Source: Eubacteriales bacterium
Lineage (GTDB): Bacteria; Bacillota; Clostridia; Tissierellales; GPF-1
Assembly (NCBI GenBank): GCA_030625815.1
Contig: DAOUQF010000001.1
Span: forward strand, 1 to 64,000
DNA: 64,000 nt
Reading direction: 5' to 3'
Position numbers and translations under genes: made by a program. The notes beneath the pieces were generated by a model, which had not been told where the DNA came from, did no database searches, and was given only the letters and a program-made list of their open reading frames with translations. Within the stretch, counting starts at the first letter, position 1. Each line of letters opens with the position of its first letter. This document shows positions 2,353 to 8,625 of this stretch, one piece after another.

Positions 2353-2988
2353 TTAAGTTATTGGAAATTGATCAATCATTTCTTGGAGTTCGTTAACGAA
2401 TCGTGACAGATGAAATCCATCACAAACGGCATGATGTACTTGTACGGCGAGTGGCAATAGACAGTGACCATTTATAACTTCAAACTTGCCTATTGTAAAA
2501 ATCGGCAATAAATAATTATAGTCTTTTTGTAGATTCAGGTTGAAACTGTCGAAGTTCGACCATGGAATCATGGACACTGGAAAAGTATTCTCGGGAACAT
2601 CTGGCTTGGCAATCATACGCTCTATAGAGCCATATTTCTGGAGATCTCTCTCATACGCAGCACAAAAGGCTGCATAATTTTCTTGATATGAAGTCCAAAT
2701 GCTGGAGAACGTTTCACTTTTTTTGTGAAATACGGTGTAGTAAGGAGCAAGAGTATCATATACACCCACATCTCCGTGGCTGTCCAACGCTGTTCGAAAT
2801 TCTTCATGGCGATTTACAATGACAGTAAGGAGATAGAGCATTGTTGGATACAAGCTTCGATTCTGTTCGTGCAATCGAGTTATATCAAGTCGCACAGTCA
2901 TGCTATAAGTACAAGGTACATTCGATAAGTAATGGTTAAAGTATTCTTCACGCTTCCATGTGGAGCGATTAATTTTTTGAAATATCAT
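2353..2988 (-). CDS. cat: Chloramphenicol acetyltransferase (CatA type)
   Basis: The 211-residue protein matches classical type A chloramphenicol acetyltransferases in length and layout. It has the N-terminal WKREEYFNHYL segment and the catalytic motif HHAVCDG near the C terminus, with the general-base histidine at about 186 and the structural aspartate at about 190. The family moves an acetyl group from acetyl-CoA to the 3-hydroxyl of chloramphenicol in a cytoplasmic trimer. The ATG at 2988 is chosen because AGAGGA lies six bases upstream and the family start (MxFxKIxxxxWKR) matches; the frame is open for 27 more codons upstream without a good site. Whether this copy confers resistance or acts on another xenobiotic cannot be told from sequence. 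Confidence 0.9.
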   Translation of the reverse strand: MIFQKINRSTWKREEYFNHYLSNVPCTYSMTVRLDITRLHEQNRSLYPTMLYLLTVIVNRHEEFRTALDSHGDVGVYDTLAPYYTVFHKKSETFSSIWTSYQENYAAFCAAYERDLQKYGSIERMIAKPDVPENTFPVSMIPWSNFDSFNLNLQKDYNYLLPIFTIGKFEVINGHCLLPLAVQVHHAVCDGFHLSRFVNELQEMIDQFPIT

Positions 2989-3016
2989 AGATTTTCCTCT
3001 TCTTTTTTGATTTTTC

Positions 3017-3091
3017 TTATTCCGCAATTCTTGTACTCTGTTGAAAAATTTGCAATACCACATCTGCAATGCATCGATTTGCCTTACTCAT
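3017..3091 (-). other. Possible 24-codon upstream ORF of cat
   Basis: A short frame (MSKANRCIADVVLQIF...) begins behind AGAAGGAAAT and stops 28 bases before the cat start. Inducible cat genes often carry leader peptides, but no hairpin hiding the cat ribosome binding site is visible. This may be a chance frame or a coding remnant. Confidence 0.25.
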
Positions 3092-6948: not shown

Positions 6949-7977
6949 TTACAGCTTTTCAGCCTCAACAATACAATAAAATGGTTCGATATCAAGTTTC
7001 TCGCCGAACTGGTAGATTTCTGTTGCTTTTAATCCACATTCTTTTAAGAATGATTCAACCGCTGCTTTCGGATCATTCGACATATCTATTCCAAATTTCC
7101 ATGGCTCTCCCATTTTTCCTATCATTCTTGACGTTTTTTTAACTGTTTTTGAAGTCTCACCTAATACGAATGATTTGGAATAAAAGTCTTGAGCGATGAT
7201 GCTCCCGGCTACACATAAATCAGCCATTTGTCTAAGTGATTCTTTGACAGTATCATCTTCTAAAAACAATGAAACGCTTTCCCAAAGGAACAAAGTCTTT
7301 TTCGTTTTATCAAAACCAGCTCTTAATAGATTATCAACCCAAGATTCGTTTGAATAATCAACTGGGATATAGTTGATCCAATCATGCTGTAACCCTGTTT
7401 TTTTCAATGTTTCGATTTTAATATTGATTGTTTGAACCTGATCGAGTTCGAAAACCTTCACTTCTTTTCCTTTTGTGAATGGCAAAGCGATTAGATCGAA
7501 TCCAACTCCAGGAATGACAATCTGATCCACTTCATCAACATATTTTTCCATGATCTTGTCAAACTTGAGCAACCGAATACCCGCTGTGGATTCTAAGGTC
7601 TCTTCACCTGGTTCAACAAGTTTTCCAAGCTTGGTGGTGAAACCAAATAACCGTTGGGAAATGATAAGAGCTCCCAAAGTCGACCACAAACCAAAATGTG
7701 ATTCACAAGGAAACTTTTTAGTGAATGCAACAGAAAGGGGATCTGGTCTGGTGTTAAAATAATGCATGATCCACCTGTATTGTAGTGCTTGACCTGCCGA
7801 GAAGGAGACACCCAGTTTCTTGCTTTTTCTCATTTCCTTGTAAAGGCCATCGATTAGTCCAATAATGGCAAAAGGAATGAAGATTATTTGAATGGGTATA
7901 TAAAGGATGATTTGAAGAAGCTTAGTTAAGAAACGCAATATTCCGGGAAGCTGTTTTTTTGTGTTTTTATCTGCCAT
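6949..7977 (-). CDS. Leucine carboxyl methyltransferase-like class I SAM methyltransferase
   Basis: The 342-residue protein begins with a hydrophobic segment (about 10-42, possibly a membrane anchor) followed by an LCM/PPM-like methyltransferase domain. Motif I reads IPGVGFD and the acidic loop VFELD, with a later LFLWESVSLFL segment matching the family's (W/F)E(G/S) region. Family members methylate carboxyl groups or small metabolites; the substrate is unknown. ATG 7977 is chosen because GGAGGAGGATCTT precedes it; the ATG 15 bases upstream lies inside that region without a site. The gene follows the CopZ-like gene by 24 bases on the same strand, so the two are probably cotranscribed. Confidence 0.75.
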   Translation of the reverse strand: MADKNTKKQLPGILRFLTKLLQIILYIPIQIIFIPFAIIGLIDGLYKEMRKSKKLGVSFSAGQALQYRWIMHYFNTRPDPLSVAFTKKFPCESHFGLWSTLGALIISQRLFGFTTKLGKLVEPGEETLESTAGIRLLKFDKIMEKYVDEVDQIVIPGVGFDLIALPFTKGKEVKVFELDQVQTINIKIETLKKTGLQHDWINYIPVDYSNESWVDNLLRAGFDKTKKTLFLWESVSLFLEDDTVKESLRQMADLCVAGSIIAQDFYSKSFVLGETSKTVKKTSRMIGKMGEPWKFGIDMSNDPKAAVESFLKECGLKATEIYQFGEKLDIEPFYCIVEAEKL

Positions 7978-8001: not shown

Positions 8002-8454
8002 CTAACTATTCTTAATAAAGTCAGCGATGGTACTTGAACAGCATTTGCCGGTTGGGTTTTTATGTAGGCAGTCACAGTTTTTCATCGCACCGGTTGCTTC
8101 CATGATCAGACGAACATCCTTCGTATTAAGCTCTTTGATCGCTTTTTCGATATCAGATTCACGAACGGAGGAGCAATAACATAAAAACTTTTCTTTGGCT
8201 TCGCTTTTATACCAAACAGGAACGGAGACTTCTGTCGTCGTATAGGAATCGCTCTTATTATAGTAGACAATCTCACATTCCGGAGTCATGCAAATATGAT
8301 ATTGATCAGGTGTGATGTTTTGATGTTTTTCCAAGACGAGGCTGTCAACGGTTGTTTCTGATACAGGTTGACCTTTTTCACCACATCTAGGGCAAAGCGT
8401 GATTGATTCTTCAACTGAAGAAGTTTGGAAGTTTCAACAATTTTTATGGGTCAT
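8002..8454 (-). CDS. CopZ-like [2Fe-2S] metallochaperone, probable selenoprotein (in-frame UGA at codon 7)
   Basis: A conventional ORF call would start at 8334, but homology continues upstream in frame. The protein reads MTHKNC-UGA-NFQTSSVEES, then CPRCGEKGQPV, YHICMTPECEIVYY, FLCYCSSV and KNPTGKCC. That is the zinc-ribbon plus BFD-like iron-sulfur layout of CopZ-type copper/mercury metallochaperones. No ATG, GTG or TTG lies in frame between the TGA (8434-8436) and CPRCG, and AAGGAGATGG precedes the ATG at 8454. Cysteine homologues as I recall them start with a CC pair, so C-UGA fits Sec replacing the second Cys. A hairpin (TTCTTC, loop AGTT, GAAGAA) starts 12 bases after the TGA, with a G in the loop, as expected of a bacterial SECIS. 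The alternative is a gene broken by one point mutation. Confidence 0.75.
8412..8433 (-). promoter_or_regulatory. Candidate bacterial SECIS hairpin
   Basis: Directly downstream of the in-frame TGA on the minus strand, TTCTTC and GAAGAA pair around AGTT. The loop begins about 17 bases after the TGA and has G at its second position. This agrees with the loose bacterial SECIS consensus (short stem, small loop with an early G, 16-37 bases from UGA) as I remember it. Confidence 0.5.
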
Positions 8455-8625
8455 TTTTTCCATCTCCTTTTACTATATTTACACGACTTGACTGTAATAA
8501 ACGTAAAACGAAACAATTGACTGATGGCGCTGCCAGTTCAAGTGACTCGAACGTGGTAAGATACATATATGTTGCTTTAATTATATCATCAATTGTCAGT
8601 TTTTCGGGTCTGAATAAACTGAAAT

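Follow-up and report, generated by a model that had tools for sequence, protein, structure and literature searches.

A CopZ-like gene with an in-frame UGA very probably read as selenocysteine: a diverged member of a predicted selenoprotein family

Described CopZ-family selenoproteins and the locus compared

Forms 1 and 2 of a "(2Fe-2S)-binding protein (copper chaperone CopZ family)" are listed among selenoproteins (PMC9312934, PMC13188914). Form 2 has the motif CU and carries the name Csac_0668 family (PMC13188914); in the literature found, Csac_0668 itself is otherwise discussed only in a computational re-annotation (PMC4510573). The main text of the 2008 survey that is cited as the source of the family contains neither the word CopZ nor 2Fe-2S. 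Form 2 corresponds to the NCBI model NF045877 (CopZ_Nterm_CU, "Csac_0668 family 2Fe-2S cluster-binding (seleno)protein"). Given the listing in two reviews and this model, a UGA-encoded Cys-Sec pair in a CopZ-like protein is not new.

The window, i.e., the whole stretch of 64,000 nucleotides that was analyzed, carries a further, diverged member of this known predicted selenoprotein family, a gene that is probably unannotated [Table 1]. For its read-through product, NF045877 leads the NCBIfam matches by far (7e-40, 136.6 bits), and the alignment covers residues 3-148 such that the homology spans the TGA. The curated cut-off of the model (190) is not reached. This is also the case for other UGA-bearing proteins (L064, 169.4; L061, 176.3; L044, 134.6), and the cut-off therefore looks too strict for deep branches. 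The window protein resembles the NF045877 proteins in its domain order, the N-terminal CU or CC pair, the position of the UGA and the SECIS-type hairpin, while it differs in its low score, its long branch and in having one to two fewer codons from the UGA to CPxC than most UGA members. The model NF047645 (CopZ_Nterm_CC, putative iron-sulfur cluster-binding metallochaperone) shares the domains; however, it is named for a Cys pair, and the window copy scores 84.9 relative to its cut-off of 100. Form 1 (GxUC, C-terminal Sec) belongs to the same protein family and also has a UGA-encoded Sec, but here the Sec is located beside the last cluster cysteine. Among the relatives that we collected, a separate clade with Sec at this C-terminal cluster site (AGxUC; L154 and L157-L162) fits the published form 1.

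The domain matches are in keeping with this assignment. The read-through product matches PF18423 (zf_CopZ) at 2.6e-18, above the Pfam cut-off, and PF04324 (Fer2_BFD) at 4.1e-5 with 24.3 bits, slightly below the cut-off of 26; the CU pair, the zinc ribbon and the BFD-like [2Fe-2S] domain thus follow each other in the order of the family. An AlphaFold2 model based on 26 relatives has a mean pLDDT of 88, with values of ~48-64 over the first 20 residues, and Foldseek pairs it with PDB 2HU9 (E = 3.6e-10), a structure of the N-terminal part of CopZ from Archaeoglobus fulgidus, in agreement with the sequence match to the same structure. The fold, the zinc ribbon and the [2Fe-2S] cysteines are shared with 2HU9. 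In contrast, CPxC begins at residue 4 in the A. fulgidus protein, which consequently is without an N-terminal CU arm. Full-length A. fulgidus CopZ also has a copper-binding C-terminal HMA domain (MxCxxC). The window protein ends at residue 150 and has no Pfam match to an HMA domain.

Table 1. Positions of the features at and next to the CopZ-like gene (numbering of the window)
Feature	Position	Strand	Remarks and basis
Predicted CopZ-like selenoprotein gene	8002..8454	-	150 aa, Sec at residue 7 (MTHKNCU...); ATG 8454-8452, TAG 8004-8002
Ribosome-binding site AAGGAG	8464..8469	-	9 nt 5' of the ATG; sequence
TGT-TGA, predicted Cys-Sec (CU) motif	8434..8439	-	TGT 8439-8437, in-frame TGA 8436-8434 (codon 7); sequence, relatives with TGA at or adjoining the site
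CPRCG, first half of the zinc ribbon	8380..8394	-	Residues 21-25; sequence
Putative bSECIS hairpin UUCUUC-AGUU-GAAGAA	8407..8422	-	Fits the published bSECIS model; family statistics
C-terminal BFD-like [2Fe-2S] region (CYC ... C ... GKCC)	8005..8181	-	Pfam; fold match to 2HU9
SAM-dependent methyltransferase (TIGR00027/LCM)	6949..7977	-	Downstream; ATG with GGAGGAG site

Reading frame and the residue at the UGA site in relatives

The frame that opens at 8454 reads M T H K N C [TGA] N F Q T S S V E E S I T L C P R C G, and up to CPRCG the TGA is followed by no in-frame ATG, GTG or TTG. The nearest possible start codon further on in this frame, of whatever type, is a TTG at 8334. This codon lies within the zinc ribbon, and initiation there would result in loss of the first half of the ribbon. 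An earlier note on this DNA had claimed that CPRCG can be reached from the ribosome site only through the TGA at codon 7 and that no alternative start intervenes; the sequence confirms both points.

Relatives were gathered from the class, the phylum, the order and from named genomes. A scan of the contigs with the window protein as single query returned nothing, and an alignment-based scan returned 80 loci; both genus mates of the host lack the CopZ-like gene. In the alignment, C21, P22 and C24 are invariant. A TGA is positioned a little upstream of CPxC in 22 distinct sequences (that of the window included), which come from many Bacillota. These include Caloramator australicus, Tissierella creatinophila, Sporosalibacterium faouarense, Thermohalobacter berrensis, a Thermincola bin and Fenollaria, and the order contains two further UGA members (L182 and L183). 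The spacing from the TGA to CPxC is 14-17 codons in all UGA sequences but one (21 in L141), and the TGA is preceded by Cys in 20 of the 22. In L044 the preceding residue is Thr, while in L089 (Oceanirhabdus seepicola) the TGA is located one codon earlier, giving S-U-C, that is, a swapped order of Sec and Cys. The other relatives mostly have CC or CCC at the Sec site, which agrees with the Cys-Cys pair that the earlier note had given for the Cys homologues. The only sense-codon exception to TGA or Cys that was seen is a Leu codon (QSC-L-GS) in L136 (G482:C6:44133-44594), which is nearly identical to UGA members and represents either a natural loss or a sequence variant. Comparison with homologues, as suggested in the earlier note, accordingly gives TGA or Cys at this site with this one variant aside.

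When the Sec/Cys label is placed on the tree, a minimum of six changes is needed, of which three are forced by well-supported branches. The branch of the window protein is long and is placed, with some uncertainty, close to L028, a Cys protein; the window protein is at most 44% identical to any relative. A separate observation concerns a near-identical CCC form that is present in several phyla (L067-L096 and L181; Peptoniphilus, Prevotella, Porphyromonas, Gordonibacter and Veillonella), and within this set also on the conjugative plasmid pAPRE01. The spread over several phyla together with the plasmid location suggests that the CCC form was recently transferred, and some of the copies could be contamination.

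These comparisons bear on whether the locus is an ordinary Cys gene in which a sequencing error or a recent nonsense mutation (TGC/TGT to TGA) generated the TGA at codon 7. The TGA is indeed one base off a Cys codon and the genome is a 58-contig assembly. Moreover, the CCC-type relative L137 (G475:C1:2175285-2175743) has a stray in-frame TGA right after its Cys cluster (CSD-TGA-KE) and is possibly a pseudogene or the result of an error. However, an equivalent TGA recurs in 21 other distinct sequences, mostly from unrelated genomes and with SECIS-type hairpins, the remaining reading frame is intact, and the host has the Sec machinery (see below). A sequencing error was rejected on the basis of the TGA-bearing relatives, and we consider it very unlikely that the gene is a Cys gene spoiled in either way.

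Even less probable is that the UGA acts as a real stop for a short upstream peptide and that translation of the chaperone begins at a codon further 3'. Half of the UGA relatives do have an ATG or GTG between the TGA and CPxC, but the window gene and 10 other UGA members have none, and the Cys relatives read straight through. A stop conserved with a start just after it, the arrangement that the earlier note had set against its own proposal, is thus absent where these members are concerned: no usable start follows the TGA. In the window, the TTG inside the zinc ribbon argues against a restart, as does the finding that the sole good ribosome site precedes 8454. Start positions and relatives together led us to reject a stop followed by a restart.

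The hairpin and the decoding machinery

The published bSECIS model comprises a loop of 3-9 nt with a G in one of the first two loop positions, an upper stem of 4-16 bp and a distance of 16-37 nt from the UGA (PMC13188914). The hairpin in the window fits this model, with a 6-bp stem that starts 11 nt past the TGA and an AGUU loop that starts 17 nt past it. A short hairpin with a G-bearing loop had been proposed at this place and it is present, while the proposed distance of 12 bases is off by one. Caloramator has the identical loop at the identical distance, with a GCUUC/GAAGC stem.

Comparison across the family strengthens the case. The bSECIS rules are passed by 21 of the 22 UGA sequences relative to a minority of 40 Cys sequences (Mann-Whitney p = 3e-6), and in 17 distinct hairpins that are in register the six inner pairs form in 90% of cases compared with 66% with shuffled partners (p = 2e-4), where both p-values are optimistic since the relatives are not independent and the 17 hairpins were preselected for pairing. 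Two UGA members, L066 and L141, have no good hairpin as judged by stem score. The stem also shows compensatory changes, with U-A, C-G and G-C interchanging at one position. In a null model in which the proteins were held fixed and the genes were recoded with synonymous codons, the summed hairpin score of the UGA set is 276.5 versus 85.6 +/- 23.4 in the recodings, while that of the Cys set (48.5 versus 41.7 +/- 15.6) is at the null. For the window gene alone, the same comparison gives p = 0.031, and its hairpin is unremarkable by plain folding energy (z = -0.10); hence, the hairpin claim rests on the family. Of the folding check suggested in the earlier note, the energy of the window hairpin therefore lent nothing to the claim, whereas the family comparison and the synonymous-codon controls did support it. 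The Cys relative L113 (Clostridium peptidivorans) has a hairpin, CUACUAGGUUGGUAG, at the right distance. This may be the remnant of a Sec site that has changed to Cys.

A genome lacking the sel genes would have spoken against Sec insertion, but this objection fails since the host encodes SelA, SelB, SelD and tRNA-Sec. The scores (SelB, 342 bits; SelA, 553 bits; SelD, 389 bits) are all above the curated cut-offs, and the tRNA-Sec (selC), with the anticodon TCA (UCA in the RNA), is above the gathering score. SelD is a selenoprotein itself, with an in-frame TGA in its active site (motif SGUGAK). Its gene (L025) is located on contig C3:1548-2471 of the host genome (G000) with selA close behind on the same strand, while selB and selC are on a separate contig (C38). 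SelA is likewise encoded in the two further genomes of the genus.

Collectively, the intact reading frame and the conservation of the UGA, together with the fold, the hairpin of SECIS type and the host's decoding machinery, support that the in-frame UGA is very probably decoded as selenocysteine and that this is a genuine selenoprotein gene, a conclusion drawn from sequence comparison. The interpretation put forward in the earlier note is in this respect upheld by the sel genes, the relatives with TGA or Cys and the lack of a usable downstream start. Translation would initiate at 8454, and at codon 7 SelB and tRNA-Sec, guided by the hairpin just 3' of it, would decode the UGA. The product would be a protein of 150 residues in which an N-terminal Cys-Sec pair precedes a zinc ribbon of the CopZ type and a [2Fe-2S] domain of the BFD type.

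Gene neighborhood and possible roles of the CU pair

The AlphaFold2 model suggests that the CU pair would be part of a poorly ordered arm ahead of the zinc ribbon, where it might be suited to act as a metal or redox ligand. In this scenario, the flexible arm would offer a ligand for soft metals (Cu(I)/Hg(II)) or for redox chemistry in place of the CC or CCC of the relatives, and the protein would bind, pass on, or help to reduce Cu(I)/Hg(II)-type metals. We regard a soft-metal role of the CU protein as somewhat favored. In three relatives (L065, L097 and L111), the UGA-type CopZ gene follows right after genes for an ArsR/SmtB-type regulator and MerA with short gaps (MerA, TIGR02053 over cut-off; the regulator assignment was examined for L065 and L097), pointing to soft metals and mercury above all.

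The window gene is differently placed. The gap between its stop and the ATG of the downstream TIGR00027 methyltransferase gene is 24 nt, and the two are for this reason probably co-transcribed. A divergent FMN reductase gene adjoins it on the other side, and another FMN reductase gene is found downstream of L028. Further away, at 2353-3069 (-), there is a chloramphenicol acetyltransferase-family gene (PF00302, 1.4e-72). No metal genes neighbor the window gene and no MerA above cut-off was found in the host genome, and a mer-operon context for this gene was therefore rejected. CsoR-like regulators and CopA, the latter split over contig ends, are encoded on other contigs of the host. Sec insertion itself is something that we infer, as are the metal and the physiological role of the window protein, the latter two because neither a regulator nor MerA is encoded beside it and the host has no MerA over cut-off.

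These features raise the possibility that the protein is a real selenoprotein that acts in redox reactions or in the transfer of electrons by its Fe-S cluster, perhaps together with the adjacent methyltransferase or the divergent FMN reductase, rather than in metal delivery. The BFD-type [2Fe-2S] domain, the usual redox activity of Sec, the FMN reductase genes beside the window gene and downstream of L028, and the lack of adjacent metal genes are consistent with such a role. The CopZ architecture, with its zinc ribbon and 2Fe-2S domain, and the MerA/metalloregulator operons of the UGA relatives point instead to metals, and we consider a redox role in place of metal delivery the less likely one. 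A more far-reaching possibility, which we likewise hold to be less likely than not, is that the CU arm acts as a selenolate-thiolate acceptor for Hg(II)/Cu(I), which in the UGA-bearing relatives would pass Hg to the MerA encoded just upstream, and that the window copy is a diverged stand-alone version working with a methyltransferase. If such a handover takes place, the metal-handling operons of the UGA relatives would be selenium-dependent.

Standard gene calling would miss the protein or begin it inside the zinc ribbon. With this locus, the predicted selenoprotein family gains a deep branch, which falls outside the present curated model. Moreover, the conserved hairpins together with the possible leftover hairpin in L113 provide a compact case for studying the exchange between Sec and Cys, and the operons in which UGA-type genes accompany MerA offer a testable link between selenium and the handling of mercury or copper.
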